Assembly (NCBI GenBank): GCA_030998015.1
Contig: JARWMV010000022.1
Span: forward strand, 62,001 to 126,000
DNA length: 64,000 bases
Direction: 5' to 3'
DNA from: Ceratorhiza oryzae-sativae
Taxonomy: Eukaryota; Basidiomycota; Agaricomycetes; Cantharellales; Ceratobasidiaceae
In this document: positions 44,575 to 55,216 of the stretch, in pieces
Position numbering within the stretch: the first letter of the stretch is position 1
Layout of the letters: each line of letters starts with the position of its first letter
Notes under the pieces: generated by a model
Database searches by the model: none
What the model was told of the DNA's origin: nothing
Seen by the model: only the letters and a program-made list of their open reading frames with translations
Translations under genes and position numbers: made by a program

Positions 44575-44687
44575 AGGGGGTTATCTTCCCTGTTTTGTTA
44601 TGACCTGCCTAGCAGACATAACCTAACAACCAAATATTGTACAGATTTATGGCATTTTTCCCGAAGCAGAACAAACCATAAACAGGA

Positions 44688-44888
44688 TCACATGATCTCG
44701 GCGCTTACCCAACGATTAAGCGCCGGTGGTTACCCTGAACTCGCTCCAGCATTTCTCTCCCATGTTACCTGGAGCAAGGAGTGAGTTGTCACGTGATCTT
44801 GGTGCTTACCAACGACTAAGCGCCGGTGGTTACCCTGAACTTGCTCCAGCGTTTCTCTCCCATGTTACCTGGAGCGAGGAGCGAGTTG
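44688..44888 (+). repeat. U3 tandem repeats with CACGTG boxes
   Basis: Two units of 100-101 bp, each with TCACRTGATC, GATTAAGCGCCGGTGG, and TCTCTCCCATGTTACC. The 3' LTR has three such units (54524-54825). E-box palindromes of this kind bind bHLH factors in fungi, so these may be promoter elements; that is inference. Confidence 0.8.
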
Positions 44889-45099
44889 TCACGTGACCTC
44901 GGCGCTTATCCAGCGATTAAGCGCCGGGTGCTTAAGTCCAAAAGGTCACATGACCCTCGGACCTTGCACAGCTCTATAAGATTCAGAGCCGCACAAACTT
45001 AGGATAAACAATTACCTAAGACCTAGTACTATATAGAACCTATAACTGCTATAGATGGTGCTTAGGAAAGAGGGGCCACCGCAGCAACTGCAGTCACAT

Positions 45100-45146
45100 G
45101 TATATAAGGGGAGTAAAGCAAGACTGAACGCCTCAGCTTGCTTTAT
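45100..45146 (+). promoter_or_regulatory. LTR core promoter and RNA start
   Basis: TATATAAGG at about 45100-45108 is followed 30 nt later by AGCTTGCTTTAT (45135-45146). This 12-mer is the exact complement of the primer site at 45277-45288. In a self-priming element that puts the RNA 5' end at about 45135. Confidence 0.7.
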
Positions 45147-45276
45147 CTCGTCAACCACCATAGACCATAGCAAAAACTGTAACTAGAACGCTCAATACAT
45201 ACTGCATAGCACCAAACCGTCAACGCAGCCACTACTTAAGTGTTCCACAAGGGAGCCTCCAGAGGGTCACAACATT

Positions 45277-45288
45277 ATAAAGCAAGCT
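45277..45288 (+). other. Self-primer binding site
   Basis: ATAAAGCAAGCT, two bases inside the 5' LTR, is complementary over all 12 bases to the predicted RNA 5' end at 45135-45146. It does not resemble a tRNA 3' end. This is the Tf1/sushi-type self-priming layout. Confidence 0.75.
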
Positions 45289-45395
45289 CTTAACTTAACT
45301 AGTGGTGAACATAAGTATACTGCACAGATACTAAGGGCTGAGTACATGAGAAAACCAGCTAACTCCTGTGATACATAAGAGAACATAAAGAAACT

Positions 45396-47163
45396 ATGTC
45401 ACAGAGACCACAAACTCGATCTCAAAGCAGAGTGGCAAATAGTAGGCCACAATCACCCAAACCCATTGCTTCCCCAGAGGCTGAAGGTAACCCAGATGAG
45501 ACCCTCCAAGGAATGCCAGGGGGGTTGCCACAAAACCCATGACCAGTGGCTCAACCCAACCCCACTCGGGCCCCCATCTTGGGAGGGGAAATAGGGGGAA
45601 TACCACTCCGCAGCCCTCAACCGCCAATTCACCTGACAAATCCAGACCCAGAAGATATCTCAAATCCAGAGAGGGATGAGGTAGAAGATATGACCCGAAC
45701 CATATACAAACAAGGCACGGCCTTGGCAGAAGAGGCAAGGACACAACCCCAGCCAGGTCCTGGAGCCATAGCCACTGCCAACCCTATTCACACCATTGCC
45801 ACAGCCATCAGGGCGGGGCTCAAGGAACTTAGAGACAATAATCATAGGGAACTAGAAAAGGCAATCACAGGTATAAATCAGTGTCAAATATCACTAACCC
45901 GACAAGAAGGAAACGTGGACTGGATGGTAAGGTCAATGGAAACATCCAACAAAAATGTCCTCTATGTGGCAAAGAACCAGGACGACCTAAAAGCAGAAAT
46001 GGGGAACCTGATAAAAGAATTAAAGGACATCTCCATGGAAATAAACCGGGTACTGGGAATGCAAGAGTGAAAGCTCGAAAGCTTAGAGAAGAAAACTGAA
46101 AACAACTGAAGCAGGAAGGCCAAGGGAAAGGACAGAAGAAACCAGGGGAAGAACTAGGGTGGTCATAGGAAGCCCCTCACGATCCCCCTCAGCCTCCCCA
46201 GTACGAACACCCTTTCTGGGAAGAACCTTCCAGGCTGAGTCCACAATAAGACCCCGAACAGAACCTCCATCCCAAGCAAACCAACCTACCCTTGCTGCAA
46301 ACCACACCCCTAAGGAGGCGAGACTAGGGAGACCCAGCAAATTTAATGGGAAAAAGGGGAAGGAAGCAGAGAACTTCATAATCAGCATGGAACTTTTCTT
46401 TGCTGACTATGACGAATCAGCCTTTGATGACTGAAAAAAGATATCTGCTGTGCTAATGAACATGGAGGATGGGGAAGCAGCAAACTGGGCACAACCTTAC
46501 TGCCAGAAACTACTAGCAGGCGAACACACAGGTATTCTTGCATCCTGGAAGGATTTCAGGAAGGGATTCCTGGATGCTTTTAATGACCCAGTCATAAAGG
46601 AAAAGACCATCCGGAAACTAAGGAAATTAACACAGACCAAGAGTGCATTGGATTATGCTACCCAATTCCGGATCCTGATCCAAGAGGTAGACTGGAACCA
46701 GGAAGCCCTCAAGGACCAATTCAGGGAAGGGTTAAAACCCGAAGTACAACAAGAGATCTTAAGGATTGAAGTACTGGCAAATGAGGCTGAAGGTCCATCA
46801 TATACCTTAGATCAATTAATTGACTTTGCCTGCAAAATGGACGACATGCAGTTTGCGAACCAGAAAATGAATACAAGGACCAGCAACTCATCAAATTCAA
46901 CCTGGGCACCAGCAAAATACAAACAAGGGGGGAACAAGCCTTTAGGGACCAGCAAACAGGGGAATACCCAAACCAACAACATGGTAAGGATACCAAACAG
47001 TGAAAAGGACAGGCGAAGGAAAGAAGGACTCTGCATCAAATGCGGTAAATCAGGGCATGTCCTGAAGGAGTGCCGAGGCCAGTGGACCTACGACAAAGCT
47101 AAGCTACAAGGGAAGGCCAGCAGACAAGTTGAGGAAGAAAGCAGCTCTGAGTCGGAAAACTAA
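45396..47163 (+). pseudogene. Gag of the Rep-carrying chromovirus
   Basis: The start ATG at 45396 gives MSQRPQTRSQSRVANSRPQS. The frame runs to 46070 with a TGA at 45540 and holds a heptad-like region (VAKNQDDLKAEMGNLIKELK). It then shifts near 46080 into the frame SPSRSPSASPVRTPFLGR and on to 47163. This second part has the capsid (RPSKFNGKKGKEAENF, ISAVLMNMEDGEAANWAQPY, WKDFRKGFLDAFNDP, LDYATQFRILIQEVDW) and a zinc knuckle CIKCGKSGHVLKEC at 47031-47072. A TGA at 46432 interrupts it. Each TGA could be a mutated CGA. Gag ends in TAA 17 bases before the pol ATG, in a different frame. Confidence 0.85.
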
Positions 47164-47180
47164 TTGGTCCTACCACTTCC

Positions 47181-50100
47181 ATGTTGGAGGACCCCAATAT
47201 AACCCCTACCGCAGATGTATGTTACCTCAAGAAGTCTAGTAATCAATCAATAATATACACTACGGTAGAGGGAATCATGGAACCAGCTAAGACGCTGATT
47301 GACTCAGGATCTTCAACCAACTTCATCGATAAGGCCTATTCAAGGGAAAAAGGGATTCCAACCACCCCCCTCAAACACAAGAAATCAATTGTGGCCATTG
47401 ATGGAAATGAAATCAAGGATGCCATAGAAGAAAGGGCAGAACTAAACATCGAAGTGGAAGGGAAGACACTAAAATGCTCCCTTTATGTAATGACCCTAGG
47501 TGATACAGACATAGTCCTAGGGAAAGAATGGCTTGAAGAAGCAGAACCTATCATAGATTGGAAAGACCTTACCATCTCATACCCAGACGAAATCAAGGCA
47601 AGGGCAGCAAGTGAAAGCCTACAAATCCCAGAAGAATTTAGGGATTTTGAAGACCTATTCAGGGAAGAGGGTTTCCAAGAACTTCCACCCCACTGAGGTA
47701 ACCTAGACTTCAAAATGGACCTGATCGAGGGAGCAGAGCTGCCAAAGCCTGCAAAGAGGTACAGTATGTCACCAGCAGAAACAAAGGCGCTCAGGGAGTA
47801 CCTAGAGGAGGAACTAAGAAACGGGAAAATAAGGCCCAGCCAGTCAGTTGTAGCTGCACCCTGTTTCTATGTGAACAAAGCAGATGGGGGGCTTAGGTTG
47901 GTAGTCGACTACTGTAAGATGAATGACATCACCAAGCCAGACAGGTTTCCACTTCCAATCCAAATAGAATTGATTGAGAGACTGAAGGATGCAACCATCT
48001 ATTCAAAAATGGATGTTCGATGGGGGTTCAACAACATCAGGGTAAAAGAGGGAGACGAATGGAAAACAGCTTTCAGGACAGGAGAAGGCCAGTTTGAATG
48101 CTTGGTCATGCCATTTGGAGTAAAAGAAGGACCAAGAACCTTTACCAGGTTCATGATGGAAAAGTTCCGTGATATAATAGACGATTATGTAGTAATCTAC
48201 ATGGACGATGTACTAGTGTTTTCCAGAAACAGGGAAGAACACGTACAACATGTCAGGGAAGTGTTAAAAAGAATGAGGGAAAACCACCTCTTCCTCAAAC
48301 CACACAAGTGTCAGTTCTTTGTGAAGGAGGTAAGCTTCATTGGAATTGTCATATCCCCAGAAGGGATATCGATGGAAAAGGAAAAGGTAAAGGCAGTTCT
48401 AGAATGGCCAGAACCTAACACAGTAAAAGAAGTCCAAGCCTTCCTAGGCTTTGTGGGGTTCTATAGAAGGTGGATAGAGAAGTTTAGTACCTTAGCCATA
48501 CCCCTCACAGATCTCACCCAAAAAGATGTCAAATTTCTGTGGGAAAGAAAACAACAGGAAGCATTTGAAGCTATCAAAGAAGCAGTAGCAAGAGAACCGG
48601 TCCTGATCCACCCAAACCCAAACAGGCCATACATACTGGAAACAGATGCCTCAGGAGTGGCCATGGGGGCGGTACTAAGCCAAAAGGGTGATGACAACCG
48701 ATTGCATCCAATTGCCTTCCTATCGAAGAGCTTCACCCCACCAGAGAAAAATTATGACACCTACAACAAGGAGTTGCTTGCAATTGTTAGGTCCTTAGAG
48801 CACTGGAGGTTATACTTAGAAGGGACAGAGGAACCTATTGTGATATACACTGACCATAGGAACCTCCAGTACTGGCAAAATGCCCAGATGTGGAATAGAA
48901 GGCATGCCAGATGGTATCTCACTCTGGCACCCTTCAATTTTCAGATTGTGTATAGACCAGGGAAACTCTCACAGAAGCCAGATGCCCTTTCCAGAAGGAG
49001 CAACCATGGGGATACCCCTATGGAACCACAGATCATGATTCCAGAAGAAAGGTTCATAGGTTTCATGGCAGAAGTACAGGGGAATTTCTGGGAAGAGCTT
49101 AAAGAAGCTCAGGAAGAAGATGAATCTATCAGATCATTAAGGCTGAGCGTGGCAAATAAAGAACAACTACCACCCTCAGTACAGAAGGAATTTAGATGGT
49201 ATGAAATGAAGGAGGGCCTATTAAGGTATGACAACAGGCTCTACATCCCGGATGACAAGGACTTGAGGTTGAGTCTTCTTGAGGAGTGCCATGACGCCCC
49301 AGTGGCAGGTCATCAAGGACAAGCCCGAACACTAGAATTACTATCAAGGGATTACTATTGGCCAGGAATGAAGGCCCAAGTAAACCGATATGTGGAATCT
49401 TGTGAAATGTGTCAAAGAAGCAAAGGACACAAACAAGGCACTCCCCTGAAGTCCTTACCAATCCCATGGAAACCATGGGCAGATGTCGCATATGATTTCA
49501 TTGTCAAATTACCTGTCTCAAAGGGGTACAACAGTATCTTGACAGTTGTAGATCGCTTCTCCCAGCAGGCCCATTTTGTGCCATGTCTGGAGAGCACCAA
49601 TGCAGAAGAACTGGCAGAAATATTCATAAGGGAAGTATGGAGACATCACGGGACCCCAGAAACCACTGTCTCAGACCGAGGGCCAACCTTTAACAGCCAA
49701 TTCCTAAAAGCCCTATACAAAGGAATTGGGACAAAGCCCAGATTCTCCACTGCTTTCCATCCAGAAACAGATGGTCTGTCGGAAAGGACCAATCAATGGG
49801 TAGAAGGGTTCTTAAGAACCTTCTGCAATTATAGACAAGATGATTGGGTAAAATGGTTACCCATTGCCAAATTCTGCCATAACAACCACGTAAATGCTAC
49901 AACAGGACAAACCCCATTTGAAACAGTATATGGAAAAAACCCAAGATGGGTTATCCGAGAGGGAGAAGAACCATCTGAGGCACCTGCTGCAGACAACATG
50001 TGTAATCAAATGGAAAAGGTATGGGATGAGGCAAGAGCCTCAATGGAGTTACACCAACAAATGGAAAAGAAAGGGAGGGAATTCAAGGTAGGAGACAAGG

Positions 50101-50594
50101 TTTGGCTGCTCCTAACAAACCTCTCGTCCAAGAGACCCTCCAAGAAACTGGACAACTGAAAAGGGGGGCCCTTTGAAATCACAGAAAGGATCTCATCCCA
50201 TGCATATCGCCTGGACCTACCTAAAACCATACGTGTACACAATGTATTCCATGTAAATCTCCTCTCGCCATTCACAGAAGATAAAGACTTCCAAAGAAGG
50301 CAGGCCAAACCACCACCAATCATAACGGAAAAAGGAGAGGAGGAATACAAGGTGGACCACATTGCAAATTATGAATGGCGGAATGGCGAGCTGTTTTACC
50401 AAATCAGATGGAAGGGCTACAACCCAATAGAAGACACAATGGAACGTGCCAGCAAGTTTGCTGACATGAAAGAGGTTCTAAATGACTTGCGAAGGCACTT
50501 ACCAGACGCACCAATGCCAGTCAAGACAAGTCAGCACTCAGGTGACTCGAAAGGCAGGCCAAAGAGAACCAAACGAGGATCTGGAAAGCTTTAA
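47181..50594 (+). pseudogene. Pol: protease, RT, RNase H, integrase, chromodomain
   Basis: One frame of about 1,137 codons with only two TGA stops (47694 and 50157), each explicable as a former CGA. Protease: TLIDSGSSTNFID near 47300, DIVLGKEWLEEAEPIIDW. RT: CFYVNKADGGLRLVVDY, KMDVRWGFNNIRV, and an intact YMDD box at 48198-48209. RNase H: YILETDASGVAMGAVLSQ, YTDHRNLQYW. Integrase: HH/CC (HDAPVAGHQG, CEMCQRSKG), core D at YDFIVKLP, D at VSDRGPTFN and the glutamate-containing LSERTNQW. A chromodomain (VDHIANYEWRNGELFYQIRW, 50352-50520) would steer insertion to chromatin marks. It is almost intact. Confidence 0.93.
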
Positions 50595-50678
50595 AAGGAG
50601 CCATCCAGGATACCCAAGAAAGGCCAGAGTCCACTCTACCACCACACTTGCACCACAACACATAAACCCAATTTCACT

Positions 50679-51497
50679 ATGCCTTTTGCCACTCGCCCCA
50701 CGTTTCCCTCAGGCCACTTTGCGCCCCTGGTTAATAATCAGGTCGCCCGCGTCCGGTTGGCGCCCACCACAAGACGGCCAGCTCCCTACCCAGGCAAGGA
50801 AAACCGCAAGAAGCCAGGCCAGTACACCCCGAGCGTGGAGGAACACCAAATGATTGCAGAGAGCTTACTGCCAGGGGCCAACTTGGTGTACATCCCAAAG
50901 AAGGATAGGGACAAGAGGAACTGGCTTAACGACAGCCTTTACAAGGACCCCAAGTTAGGAATACTGCGGTGGCAGGGAGTCTGAAGGCCGACAACCAGGA
51001 GCGCAATGTTGCGCACGCCAATGTATGTAATCGACAACATAGTGGGGGCAACGGTGACAGGGGTGGTCTACGCCGCCAAGGAACAGAGGGAGGCGGTGGG
51101 CCTCCAGACGACTAATGCAGATTGGGAAGTAGAGCAGCAGGCCAGGGTCCTGTTGGAGCAGTGGAAGCTGGCACCAGCGGCACTGTATGTGGGACTGCTT
51201 GAGGCCACTACCACTGATGAAATGTTTACTGCCATCAGGTTGAAGGAAGCAAACTTGGCCGACTTCCATAACTGGGTGAAGGTATGCCCAAACCTGCACG
51301 GTTACGATACGGATATGTCGAGCCTCATGGCAAGCCTGGAGTCCCTGGTGGTAAAGGAGGAGGAGCCGAGAGTAACGATAAAGGAACCAACCCCGGACCC
51401 GGCCCAAGAGGGAGTCCAAACAGATTGGGCCAAATGGGAGGATGAGCTGGCGGGCGCCTTGGAGGAAGTGCCCCTGCTGGACACAGAGCCTTTGTGA
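50679..51497 (+). CDS. Cargo reading frame X, unknown function
   Basis: Two open stretches in one frame, 50679-50984 (101 codons) and 51006-51497 (163 codons), are separated only by a TGA at 50982 and seven sense codons. They probably formed one ~272-residue protein. The N-terminus is basic and proline-rich (ARVRLAPTTRRPAPYPGKEN), the middle has LVYIPKKDRDKRNWLNDSLY and YVIDNIVGATVTGVVYAAKE, and the C-terminus is acidic (DWAKWEDELAGALEEVPLLD). It starts 85 nt after pol and runs toward gene Y. I recognise no domain. A retrotransposon accessory protein or a gene brought in with Rep are both possible. Confidence 0.5.
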
Positions 51498-51578
51498 CTA
51501 TCAGGCCTATCACAGGTTTTTTGGAATGTCTTAGGAATAATTTTCACTATCATATAATAATACATTTCAAATGTTTTT

Positions 51579-52117
51579 CTATTTTTTCTTGCCCTTGAGG
51601 GGCTGGGCATAGGGTTTTTTTGCCTTCTTATCCTTCCTAGTAGTACGGGCCGCAGAACCACCAGCCCGGTTCTCAGGCAACAGCCAGGGGGCCTCCCCCC
51701 CTGGGAAGTCGGCCATGTAGTTCTGGAAACACCCAGAACCAGACGCTGCAAAGGGCGAAGCCTCATCAAACAAGGGAGCAGAGCCCTCCTCGAAGAATTC
51801 GGCAAGAGCGGCCTGGTGAGACCGCTCCTCAAAGGACTTGTAGTCCTGATCAACGAGCGCCCAGACATGCTCAAGGGTGGCCTCATGGGCCCGACCATCA
51901 AGGAGGATGCGCTCTTCTACAGAACAAGTTAGCTACGTGAGAACGACAAAGAACGAACACACGTACCTGGCACCCCACAGAAGAACCAGTCCCCAACACC
52001 CCTGTAGAAGTCCTCAAGGGTGGCGTCGCAGACTGCGTCGCAATAGGAGCAGTAGTCCCCCTCAGGAAGGGACCAACAAGTACAGTCGAGGGGATTATAG
52101 TTAAGGGTGATGACATG
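51579..52117 (-). CDS. Cargo gene Y, antisense with a spliceosomal intron, unknown function
   Basis: Exon 1 (to 51967) starts at an ATG at 52117 (MHVITLNYNPLDCTCWSLPE); an in-frame ATG at 52261 is an alternative. The intron 51917-51966 is 50 nt, with donor GTACGT, a CTAAC branch site and a TGTAG acceptor. Exon 2 runs from 51916 to the stop at 51579. Splicing keeps the frame and gives about 162 residues (210 from the far ATG). The N-terminal half is cysteine-rich (CTCW, then YCSYCDAVC and DWFFCGV), possibly metal-binding. The tail is lysine-rich (ARTTRKDKKAKKPYAQPLKG), perhaps a nuclear signal. It converges with X and diverges from Rep. A TATA-like GATATAATC lies about 45 nt upstream of 52117. 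No family recognised. Confidence 0.62.
51917..51966 (-). other. Spliceosomal intron of gene Y
   Basis: GTACGT donor, CTAAC branch point about 15 nt before a TGTAG acceptor, 50 nt long. It fits the size and signals of basidiomycete introns such as those at 63063 and 63695. Confidence 0.8.
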
Positions 52118-52261
52118 CATAATTGAATAGAGGTTGATGAAAAGGCCCACAAGGGTGGGGAGATTATATCGACAAGGCAGGACCATAACCTGCACAAACA
52201 CCAAAACAAACTTGACCGGAAGACACAACATCACGTGACCCCCAACTGAGCAGAACAACAA

Positions 52262-52805
52262 GATGCCACGTGACCTAGCTTGGTCACATGAGCATTTGCT
52301 ATCCCCTAACTACCGGAGGGGTCGGAGAGGGGGCACCAACCGAAGTGGGGGAGCGGAGGCCCCAAGCGTAGCAAGGATCAAGGCCGACGTGGAGGAACGG
52401 ATGGGAGGGCACCCCTCGGAGATGCGTCACAAGGGAAAGACATACAAGGACAAGCAAGAAAACAAACAAGTCACGTGACATGAAGCGAACATGTGTCCCA
52501 AGCAGACGAAGAAAACAACAAGGTCACGTGACCCAGACAATGTCACATAATATGGCCGCTATCCCCTGAACTACCGGAGGGGTCGGAGAGGGGGCACCGA
52601 CCAGAGTGGAGGAGCAGAGGCCCCGAGCGCAGCAAGGTTTAAGGCTGACGCGGGGGAACGGATGGAAGGGCACCCCTCGGAGATGCGTCATCACCAAAAT
52701 AAGGTCATGTGATCACAACAAATGAAAGACGGAGTCATGTGACGATCAAAATGGACCTTGCAGCTTATATAGACAAGCACAAGGCCCGAGATAACCCGCA
52801 CTCTC
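52262..52805. promoter_or_regulatory. Divergent intergenic region with a repeated stem-loop block
   Basis: Between Y and Rep lie two copies of a ~131-bp GC-rich block (52299-52429 and 52559-52690), nearly identical. Each begins TATCCCCT, a 9-10 base spacer with AACTACCGG, then AGGGG, so CCCCT and AGGGG can pair as a short stem (52303-52321 and 52563-52582). CCTCGGAG-type motifs repeat further on. CACGTG-like boxes (TCACGTGAC and variants) are scattered through the region, as in the LTR. TATATAGA at about 52766 lies 33 nt upstream of the Rep ATG. It could be a divergent promoter and, by analogy with CRESS-DNA replicons, an origin; the latter is inference, and no canonical nonanucleotide loop is present. 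Confidence 0.55.
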
Positions 52806-54133
52806 ATGCTCTCTTCCCAGTCCCCAAATACCTCTAAAACTGTAAACAATGCTAAGCGGAAATGGATCGAACGCGGCAACACCCCAGCCAAGCGGATCAA
52901 GCAAAGGGCGGAGGTTGGCGTCGCCATCGCCAACGCCCTTGGTATCAAGCCGAGCCCCCTCACCTGCTTCTATGCAGCCTACGCTGATGGATTGAGGGTC
53001 CGAAGAGCTGACCGAAACCGCGCCGGCCCCTTGGTTCCGCGTCCAGACCAGGGCGGTGCTGCTGACCTGGTCGAAGCTACGCGATCAGCCCTCAAGTGGG
53101 CTCGTCGCCCGATACAAGGTGTTCTGCTGCCAATGGCCAAATCATTGGGCGACTTTGGCAGTGGTGGAACGCCACAACCCCGAGGAACTGAACTATGACC
53201 CGGCCCGGCCCCTCCATGTCCACGCCCTCTCCATCAGTCAGGAGCGGAAGGGCGGCTGGAACACCCAGAACACCCGGTTCTGGGACTTCGAGGGGCAACA
53301 CCCCAACATCCCCAAAGGACCTCAAGGATGGACCAGGAGGCAACCCTGCAAGGGAGGCTTTCAACTACCTCTGGAAGGATGTCGGAGCTAACAGCGAGGA
53401 GGTAGAGGAGCTGATGGCAGGGGACCTGACCTCGGAAAGGTTGGAGGAAATCCTGGTGAAGGGAAAGGGCAGGAAAAGGTCGAGGGCGGAGGCAGACCTG
53501 GAGGACGGGGCAGAGATTGTTGCCTCAGTGACAAAAAAAGAGTACTACCAGGCATTCAAGCGCCTGCGCCCCCTCCAGATGGTGACAACGTGGAACTTGG
53601 TACGAGCATATGCTGAGTACACGTATAAGGAGGACCGGGGATGCATGCCTGCAATCCCAGTGGAGTTGGAAGCCCCAGAAGACCGGGTGCACATCGACAG
53701 GGCAGACCGATGGTTCGCGGAAGAGGCTGAGAAGAGAGGGAGGGGTGTGCGCCATCGCATCCTGGTGATCGAAGGCGAAACAGGAACTGGGAAGACGGCG
53801 TATGCACGATCCAAGGGCTCCCATAGCCGGATGTGCAACATCTGGAACGTGGGGAATCTGTCGGAGGACGCCGACATCTGGATCCTGGATGACATGGTCC
53901 AGTCAAACAGGAAGTACTCGCTCAAAGCCCTGAGCCAGTACGAGGCAGACTTCACAGGCAGATATGCTCATGTGAAGTCAATGAAGGTACGACCGACGGT
54001 GATCCTGGGGAATAGCCAGTCGGCCATAATGAAGTGTTGGACGGACATAGAGGGGGAAGAAGGGGACCTATGGGTATCCAAAAATGTAGACTGGGTATAC
54101 TCAGGAGGGAAGCCATTTTTTGTTTTTCCTTAA
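52806..54133 (+). pseudogene. CRESS-DNA Rep-like protein (HUH endonuclease and SF3 helicase), frame-broken
   Basis: The three frames run 52806-53198, 52999-53391 and 53195-54133. The first gives a basic N-terminus (NNAKRKWIERGNTPAKRIKQ). The second holds a motif I-like LLTWS (53059-53073), the HUH pair HVH (53215-53223) and a block like the geminivirus-specific GRS (RFWDFEGQHPNI, to 53309). The third has YLWK (tyrosine codon 53366-53368), the position of the nicking tyrosine, then Walker A GETGTGKT (53774-53797), Walker B DIWILDD (53873-53893) and motif C with its asparagine at 54011-54013. All Rep motifs occur in the right order, but two frame changes, near 53020 and 53300, break the gene. 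Rep would nick and unwind a circular ssDNA replicon. It is most like the geminivirus/genomovirus side of the family. Confidence 0.88.
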
Positions 54134-54227
54134 AGAATAAAAATAAATTATCTTTGTATAAGCTGTTTTATTCTCAGACCATGTGTTGAGAAGTAAGCTT
54201 AAACAAGGAAATAAGCAAGGAGAAAGT

Positions 54228-54361
54228 AATCTCATGTAGCGTAGAGGTTAAGGGGTCTAGCCTGACTCATCATCTCCTAGCTGAGCAATTACACATTGAA
54301 CGGAAGGTTGTTGGTTCGAGTCCAGCACCCTTAACCTCCTCAATATATGAGATACCTTTTT
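54228..54361 (+). ncRNA. Pol III-type, tRNA-like unit
   Basis: TAGCGTAGAGG (54237-54247) fits a tRNA A box, GGTTCGAGTCC (54313-54323) is a perfect B box, and TTTTT (54357-54361) is a Pol III terminator. GAGGTTAAGGG near 54244 can pair with CCCTTAACCTC near 54327, and ATCTCAT with ATGAGAT outside it. A standard cloverleaf does not form, so this is a tRNA-derived or SINE-like sequence rather than a normal tRNA. It sits between Rep and the polypurine tract. Confidence 0.45.
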
Positions 54362-54417
54362 AGAAACTTTTAGAACCCAGAAAAGAAACATGCCTCGAGA
54401 TCCCCCAAGACATGTCC

Positions 54418-54431
54418 AAAGGGGGGGATAA
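54418..54431 (+). other. Polypurine tract
   Basis: AAAGGGGGGGATAA directly precedes the TGTTATGACC start of the 3' LTR. Confidence 0.8.
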
Positions 54432-55211
54432 TGTTATGACCTGCCTAGCAGACATAACCTAACAACCAAATATTGTACAGATTTATGGCATTTTTCCCGA
54501 AGCAGAACAAACCATAAACAGGATCACGTGATCTCAGCGCTTACCCAACGATTAAGCGCTGGTGGTTACCCTGAACTCGCTCCAGCGTTTCTCTCCCATG
54601 TTACCTGGAGCGAGGAGCAAGTTGTCACGTGATCTCAGTGCTTACCAACAATTAAGCGCCGGTGGTTACCCTGAACTTGCTCCAGCATTTCTCTCCCATG
54701 TTACCTGGAGCGAGGAGCGAGTTGTCATGTGACCTCGGCGCTTACCCCACGATTAAGCGCCGGTGGTTACCCTGAACTCACTCCAGCGTTTCTCTCCCAT
54801 GTTACCTGGAGCGAGGAGCGAGTTGTCATGTGACCTCGGCGCTTATCCAGCGATTAAGCGCCAGGTGCTTAAGTCCAAAAGGTCACATGACCCTTGGACC
54901 TTGCGCGGCTCTATAAGATTCGGAGCCGCACAAACTTAGGATAAACAATTACCTAAGACCTAGTACTATATAGAACCTATAACTGCTATAGACGGCGCTT
55001 AGGAAAGAGGGGCCACCGCAGCAACCGCAGTCACATGTATATAAGGGGAGTAAAGCAAGACTGAACGCCTCAGCTTGCTTTATCTTGTCAACCACCATAG
55101 ACCATAGCAAAAACTGTAACTAGAACGCTCAATACATACTGCATAGCACCAAACCGTCAACACAGCCACTACTTAAGTGCTCCACAAGGGAGCCTCCAGA
55201 GGGTCACAACA
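54432..55211 (+). repeat. 3' LTR of the Rep-carrying chromovirus
   Basis: A 780-bp LTR with three 101-bp U3 units (54524-54825) and a partial fourth, one unit more than the 5' LTR. It ends GGGTCACAACA, followed by the TGTTT duplication. Differences from the 5' LTR are mostly C/T and G/A changes. Confidence 0.92.
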
Positions 55212-55216
55212 TGTTT

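Follow-up and report, generated by a model that had tools for sequence, protein, structure and literature searches.

By the usual view, gag-pol is all that an LTR retrotransposon requires. The locus analysed here, in the fungus Ceratorhiza oryzae-sativae, raises the question of what a gene resembling the replication initiator (Rep) of CRESS-DNA viruses is doing inside one of them, and whether it travels as a passenger or as a working part. An initial annotation of this DNA described the gene as cargo of the retrotransposon; we find that, rather than being a single captured gene carried passively, it is part of a selected multi-gene module, which is also present in a sister family. The element family is real and under selection; it is also unusual and probably old. 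Its importance lies in the fact that strong selection has maintained, probably over a long period, a DNA replication initiator of viral type in a whole LTR family, and in the joining within one genome of two replicator classes, the elements that copy themselves by reverse transcription and the CRESS-DNA elements.

Anatomy of the element and its copies

The window, meaning the whole 64,000-nucleotide stretch that was analysed (C22:62001-126000), contains at 44596-55211 a Ty3 chromovirus that carries a Rep-like gene between pol and the 3′ LTR. This position, together with a target duplication, had been claimed in the initial annotation and is confirmed: TGTTT stands on either side of the element (44591..44595 and 55212..55216), and both LTRs (44596..45274 and 54432..55211, plus strand) run TGTTATGACC...GGTCACAACA, with TG..CA ends and a mutual identity of ~95%. 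Matching 5-bp flanks were found in three of the six copies examined at both ends, the other two pairs being CTCAC and CCATT; the three copies without a match are accounted for below. The 5′ LTR has internal repeats and is ~100 bases shorter than the 3′ LTR; LTR length varies among copies by a ~100-base repeat, and the two LTRs of the window differ by one such unit. Between them, on the plus strand, lie gag (46435..47163; Retrotrans_gag 4e-13, Ty3_capsid 1e-7 and a weak zinc knuckle), the protease (47151..47696; RVP_2 1.5e-10), pol (47697..50159) and the end of pol with a Tf2-1-like SH3 region and a chromodomain (50160..50594). Pfam matches above cut-off were obtained for gag, the RVP_2 protease, RVT_1, RNase H, the integrase zinc finger and, narrowly, the chromodomain at the integrase C-terminus (PF00385, 9.8e-6), and the integrase core (rve) matched at 26.3 bits, under its cut-off of 32.6. 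The domain order, gag and then protease-RT-RNaseH-integrase, is that of Ty3/Gypsy chromoviruses.

Downstream of pol lies a 3′ module made up, in order, of ORF A, an antisense ORF B, a conserved non-coding island, an overlapping frame and Rep. ORF A (50680..51497, plus strand) encodes 272 aa in natural open copies and is interrupted in the window. ORF B is antisense and stands back to back with Rep; its exon 1 (51967..52120) and exon 2 (51579..51916), both on the minus strand, flank a predicted 50-base intron (51917..51966, minus strand; GTACGT..CTAAC..TAG) whose donor, CTAAC branch and acceptor are kept in 25 of 29 copies. An intron in this orientation would survive a transposition cycle through sense RNA and therefore fits an expressed antisense gene. 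Neither ORF matches any family, no recognised capsid protein was found in the module, and the relatives of ORF A number two, both from Ceratobasidium AG-Ba. The island occurs twice in the window, at 52303..52429 (containing CCCCTAACTACCGGAGGGG) and 52564..52690, through a duplication in the window element. It is followed by the overlapping upstream frame ('frame a', 52806..53198) and the Rep-like gene (52849..54133), both on the plus strand, and finally by a polypurine tract (54418..54428, plus strand) that adjoins the 3′ LTR.

Searching the host genome (48.8 Mb in 253 contigs) with the Rep protein gave at least 129 matches, a lower bound in that 127 of 369 candidates were scored, and two copies appear among them as two pieces each. 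With the DNA of the Rep region there were at least 40 matches (40 of 178 candidates scored), every one of the 40 at 95-100% over the full length. We fetched 20 of these 40, five copies chosen as divergent from the lower protein list, one of which turned out to be close, and three found by pol. In all 28 copies with a readable 3′ end, which include the window's and leave out a copy with a truncated Rep whose stretch contains no LTR, the same LTR terminus stands behind the module, and the 3′ flank beyond it differs from copy to copy. Six pairs of these flanks have fragments of other repeats in common, located at offsets that do not agree. A recent one-off insertion into one element was rejected as an explanation: every one of the 28 readable copies shows this arrangement, and the sister family shows it as far as the Rep start; nor is the Rep region a later insertion with a target duplication of its own, a possibility that the initial annotation had raised. 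The idea that the family includes Rep-less copies was likewise discarded, on the evidence of three copies found by pol that lacked an entry in the Rep list: two proved to have a full-length Rep and one a truncated Rep, so these three gaps stem from the incompleteness of the list.

The same linkage can be read from the lists of matches. At least 93 of the 142 listed ORF A matches have a same-strand Rep match downstream, against at least 2 of 142 in an opposite-strand control, and ORF A lies upstream of at least 95 of the 129 listed Rep matches. Listed pol matches (n=54, drawn from 59 with five second pieces left out) have ORF A downstream in at least 47 cases and a Rep match downstream in at least 38. 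A whole pol is present upstream in 10 of the 20 copies fetched first, the others being pol-deleted, truncated or rearranged. Four of the pol-less copies (L013, L014, L016 and L020) have one common internal deletion and four different 3′ flanks; their 5′ flank is common to three of them over at least 4.5 kb and to the fourth over the visible 0.6 kb, and only L014 has matching target duplications. An amplified pol-less family that keeps Rep was considered for these copies and set aside, for they are most simply explained by one insertion combined with either LTR recombination or assembly mixing of nuclear haplotypes.

Two further features of the module region can be mentioned. The sequence TATTATTAT lies at ~51550 on the minus strand, beside a near-palindrome, in the gap where ORF A and ORF B end; 22 of 29 copies have it, but the four divergent ones all lack it. 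The predicted antisense intron is one that resides within an LTR retrotransposon.

Identity of the Rep-like protein

In natural open copies the gene encodes a 428-aa protein that contains, in a single frame and in order, motifs I and II, GRS, motif III, Walker A, Walker B and motif C. In an unbroken natural copy these are LLTWS at residue 71, H[VI]HAL at 123, RFWDFEGQHPNI at 143 and YLWK at 174, followed in the same 428-aa frame by the helicase motifs GETGTGKT at 310, WILDDM at 345 and VILGNS at 385. Geminivirus and genomovirus Reps have a characteristic motif order and spacing, GRS included, and the motifs found here are of that type. The ordered series claimed for the window is present there, but it is split across frames by one stop and one 2-base deletion (a frameshift). 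As for the three frames that had been assigned to Rep, the first, from 52806, is the overlapping frame with selection of its own, and Rep itself occupies one frame in natural copies. A single open frame contains the full ordered series at 11 of the 28 loci that were fetched; no frame of the window itself does. Among fetched proteins the series is found in 10 of 28 with at least 380 aa (11 of all 83). None of 20000 shuffles of a natural copy gave the ordered series, a control for composition only, with a motif pattern that was drawn from known family motifs and loosened enough to fit this protein.

Among the 28 copies with a whole Rep region, 10 have neither stop nor frameshift, 16 (including the window's) are broken, and in the remaining two a deletion has fused the upstream frame with Rep and thereby left it open; 12 of the 19 listed stop codons in Rep copies are of the CpG-decay type. 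The SF3-type Walker A, Walker B and motif C are kept in most relatives. Exceptions in the motif series as a whole include one otherwise open own-genome copy with an altered Walker A and one relative (P0024) in which the second histidine is altered.

Profile searches, the check that the initial annotation had suggested, gave a divided answer: no Rep model matched the window pieces, and one geminivirus model matched relatives at scores below its cut-off. The Pfam Rep models had no match at E≤1 on window proteins or own-genome copies. PF00799 (Gemini_AL1) was silent on the proteins and in a six-frame genome search, in which its control was likewise silent. In an alignment built from 17 relatives and a single own-genome copy, PF08283 (Gemini_AL1_M) matched 8 of the 18 sequences, with a best E of 0.001 and 19.5 bits against a cut-off of 24; in a separate scan of relatives it matched 4 of 8 proteins, again below cut-off. 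Five of its matches, viewed singly, extend from profile positions 10-12 to 106 of 107 and end at Walker A. A six-frame genome search with PF08283 gave no match on these elements. REP_ORF2-G2P matched one of six HUH fragments at 0.044, and weak AAA/STAND matches cover the Walker A region. NCBIfam and PHROGs profile searches gave nothing useful for the module proteins, sequence and profile searches of the PDB found no Rep, and two AlphaFold models are of such low confidence (pLDDT 35 and 36) that the fold is unreadable.

Searches for relatives of the Rep-like protein gave 49 proteins at E≤0.001 and 81 at E≤10. Every relative with an organism name is from Ceratobasidium, and the remainder are metagenomic or unnamed; the named public relatives are annotated as 'hypothetical protein', except for one 'Cdc6-like AAA superfamily ATPase'. 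There is no CRESS virus or plasmid among the 81, and none was found in viral contigs, phages, plasmids and prokaryote genomes at the sensitivity of those searches. Could the protein then be a P-loop protein of another origin, with an N-terminal part that only looks like HUH motifs? The weak AAA/STAND matches at Walker A and the lack of a Rep HMM match above cut-off would suit such a look-alike, yet it would need to have acquired seven motifs in the right order and spacing, including the GRS signature, and in relatives a PF08283 region aligned nearly full length just before Walker A, which makes this explanation very unlikely. Membership of the geminivirus/genomovirus Rep group is likely rather than proved, and the module appears to derive from a CRESS-DNA virus or plasmid. 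Elsewhere in the genome, weak Gemini_AL1_M matches in short frames at C242:160346-160474 (15.7 bits) and C68:68292-68420 (15.1 bits) fall outside the listed Rep places and may be due to chance or to other Rep remnants.

Selection on the module and its history

Selection was measured as omega, computed without CpG-type changes and against simulated placement of the same changes. Rep is under purifying selection. Between subfamilies its omega is 0.17-0.24 (seven pairs, non-independent as they set four copies against four), with 0.11-0.18 for transversions only and 0.12-0.19 for codons 66-428, and none of 300 simulations per pair reached such low values. Inside the main subfamily the pooled value is 0.41 (14 copies, 91 pairs), and on average 33.4 of 45.8 Rep differences there are CpG-type. 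A first impression that Rep evolves fast while pol diverges less had come from the best matches only and was abandoned, most of the differences being CpG-type. Two of four pol pairs were informative, with omega of 0.06 and 0.18; the other two had none and one usable difference. ORF A (omega 0.34-0.41, six pairs), ORF B (0.23-0.37 for exon 2, five pairs) and the overlapping frame are also under purifying selection.

The overlapping frame deserves a closer description. Over the first 65 Rep codons the Rep frame has an omega of 0.9-1.4, that is, an N-terminal extension of ~65 residues is unconstrained. The frame from 52806 has an omega of 0.38-0.54 per pair (P 0.003-0.057) and of 0.35 over its first 72 codons, with 0.35 (P 0.002) for fixed differences, and the third frame over this region gives 1.1-2.2. 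The selected frame switches from the overlapping frame to Rep just before motif I. A similar frame begins some Ceratobasidium AG-Ba gene models and is also present in the sister family, and a natural fusion with Rep exists in two copies. It could encode a small protein in its own right, or else an N-terminal part that frameshifting or splicing would attach to Rep.

The sister family was found through pol. Searching the genome with pol gave at least 59 matches (55 of 1542 candidates scored), 57 of them at 86-100%, one at 80% and one at 66%. Behind the 66% pol stand, in the same order, the chromodomain region, ORF A, ORF B, the island and the Rep start; the stretch read ends inside Rep and covers the module up to the Rep start, short of the 3′ LTR. 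Relative to the window, the sister ORF A is 43% identical at the aa level, the ORF B exons 49% and 54%, and the Rep start 46% and 71%. Using the sister ORF A as query returned at least 142 ORF A matches, with seven loci of sister type at ≥61%. Because a sister Ty3 family has the same order to the Rep start, the module is probably older than the split of the two families, although an exchange between them is a possible alternative. We hold it to be very probable that the gene is a Rep and, at the same time, that it has long been retained.

Within the main family, the history of the module differs from that of pol. In the pairs that were profiled, pol (47,800-50,600) is 95-100% identical, with the divergent subfamily covered only from ~50,000, and mosaics begin at the pol stop and run onward through the module. 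For instance, one pair has 67-76% identity in the first half of ORF A and ~94% in the second, 92% in ORF B exon 2, 65-69% in exon 1 and the adjoining DNA, 82-88% in the island and 93-98% in Rep; a second pair has a different pattern. Over 384 pol codons two copies differ at 4 bases, each a CpG-type change, versus 179 bases over 272 ORF A codons. From these counts and from the mosaic profiles, the module versions are far older than these pol copies, and exchange has taken place through recombination, through template switching or out of another pool.

Such mosaicism bears on an account that develops the initial annotation's idea of a replicon riding RNA-mediated transposition: the module would be a CRESS-like replicon or virus, semi-independent, that is carried by the retroelement and undergoes recombination with its own copies elsewhere. 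The module is ~3.45 kb long, close to the size of a CRESS genome, has Rep and a divergent antisense gene around a common intergenic region, and exists in versions that differ locally by up to 35% on a pol that is 95-100% identical. However, ordinary template switching in reverse transcription can produce such mosaics, and the presence of the module in the sister family is what vertical inheritance predicts. The absence of a recognised capsid protein, and of any free module, virus or plasmid relative in the collections searched, also weighs against this account, and we consider it distinctly unlikely.

Candidate roles and comparison with known systems

The reading that we favour, although it falls a little short of an even chance, is that of a Ty3 chromovirus family with a selected three- to four-gene module including Rep, in which Rep likely acts on element DNA. 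Other LTR elements yield linear DNA and one- or two-LTR circles, and reverse transcription of this element would likewise make extrachromosomal DNA in linear form and as one- and two-LTR circles. Rep could bind the island just upstream of its gene and nick and unwind the element DNA there; the nick would start rolling-circle copying of element circles, and the extra element DNA would feed integration. The predicted role of Rep in replicating the element's own DNA is possible but doubtful. Its fullest form, two fused strategies in which RNA transposition is combined with Rep-driven rolling-circle copying from the island and which are older than the family split, is unlikely. The family opens the direct question of whether retrotransposon DNA has a rolling-circle phase.

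Important to this reading is the ~130-base island upstream of Rep, which is alike in 11 of 11 aligned copies. The DNA on either side of it varies: on the left according to whether the version is window-type or common, on the right according to Rep subfamily. The island motif CCCCTAACTACCGGAGGGG is found in 26 of 29 copies and, allowing at most one mismatch, at 146 places genome-wide, against 0 for a reversed-pattern control; of the 100 places listed, 78 are followed by a Rep match that lies 0.5-1.3 kb further downstream. The sister-family island has 76% nt identity and a stem with a mismatch. A hairpin in the island was tried as a CRESS origin and rejected: the sequence is conserved, yet it folds no better than shuffles (z -0.2). 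The loop of this hairpin differs from the canonical CRESS nonanucleotide loop, and no TANTATTAC-like nonanucleotide in a recognisable stem-loop was found in the module. Moreover, island-side and Rep versions are unlinked across the mosaics, which does not favour a tight pairing of Rep and origin. The island could serve as an origin, as a promoter or as a packaging signal.

The region upstream of Rep contains a TATATA box in one subfamily as well as CACGTG motifs. Having its own upstream region would also suit a Rep-like protein that works as a DNA-binding regulator or a modulator of the host cell cycle, aiding reverse transcription and integration without replicating the element; geminivirus Rep, for example, acts on plant retinoblastoma proteins. 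Purifying selection on Rep and three neighbour frames, and the lack of a convincing origin in the module, are consistent with this role. The catalytic motifs (HxH, YxxK, Walker A and Walker B) are nevertheless kept, with single exceptions, in open copies and relatives, which counts against a pure regulator, for which they are needless, and leaves this role somewhat unlikely. They bear as well on a use by the host, in which Rep-like copies would shield it from ssDNA mycoviruses, through RNA silencing or a dominant-negative effect, with the retroelement doing no more than spreading them. High copy number is in keeping with such a use, and one report suggests immune protection for some endogenous sequences of this kind (PMC3198968), but silencing needs no long-term selection on catalytic motifs, ORF A or ORF B, and we rate this the least probable of the accounts considered.

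Returning to the favoured reading of a Rep that acts on element DNA, several known systems can be compared with the element. The protein resembles the Reps of Geminiviridae and Genomoviridae in motif order, spacing and GRS and in the PF08283-like central region of its relatives, which matched below cut-off. It differs from them in the silence of PF00799, in that no canonical origin was found, in being encoded in a retroelement, in having no outside relative among the 81 proteins at E≤10, and in an N-terminal extension that an overlapping frame covers. An HUH nuclease with a helicase is also carried by Helitrons and the other rolling-circle transposons of the HUH type, and here too a eukaryotic mobile element bears a putative pair of this sort; unlike Helitrons, this one has LTRs, an integrase and target duplications, and its helicase motifs are of the viral Rep kind.

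Two elements from the literature offer further parallels. The geminivirus-like transposon of Tuber melanosporum, with 42 geminivirus-like Rep genes, is reported to be a DNA transposon that contains transposase ORFs and is bounded by 37-bp terminal inverted repeats, has no obvious target duplications, and carries an interrupted Rep and transposase (Liu et al. 2011, PMC3198968). Both cases involve many geminivirus-like Rep genes amplified in one genome within a mobile element (here at least 129 matches). The present element, in contrast to what is described for Tuber, has direct LTRs, RT-integrase and 5-bp duplications with no transposase ORFs or terminal inverted repeats, and it has open Rep frames, measured purifying selection, extra selected genes and a sister family. 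An orchid Ty3/Gypsy element with a captured m6A demethylase domain (PMC9289625) is similar in being a Ty3 backbone with an additional fixed gene; unlike the orchid accessory, the one described here looks like a DNA-replication initiator of viral type, set in a module with an antisense gene that is predicted to bear an intron. Titles and abstract openings in the open literature contained no report of Rep as a regular LTR-retrotransposon gene. The family offers one route by which Rep genes may spread through fungal genomes.

Two minor observations concern the element as a whole. Between Rep and the polypurine tract lies a tRNA-like sequence (54234..54340, plus strand) with an intact B-box, GGTTCGAGTCC, and complementary ends; it is called by neither ARAGORN (introns allowed) nor Rfam, and the stretch containing it aligns in all five copies fetched as divergent. 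CpG content was tried as a clock for module capture and dropped because the LTRs are as CpG-rich as the module. Outside the element (window 1-44000) the observed/expected CpG ratio is 0.10; within it, gag and pol have 0.22-0.28 and the module and LTRs 0.5-0.8, with 0.34 for the tail that follows Rep, a pattern of strong CpG decay in the window that possibly arose through cytosine methylation.
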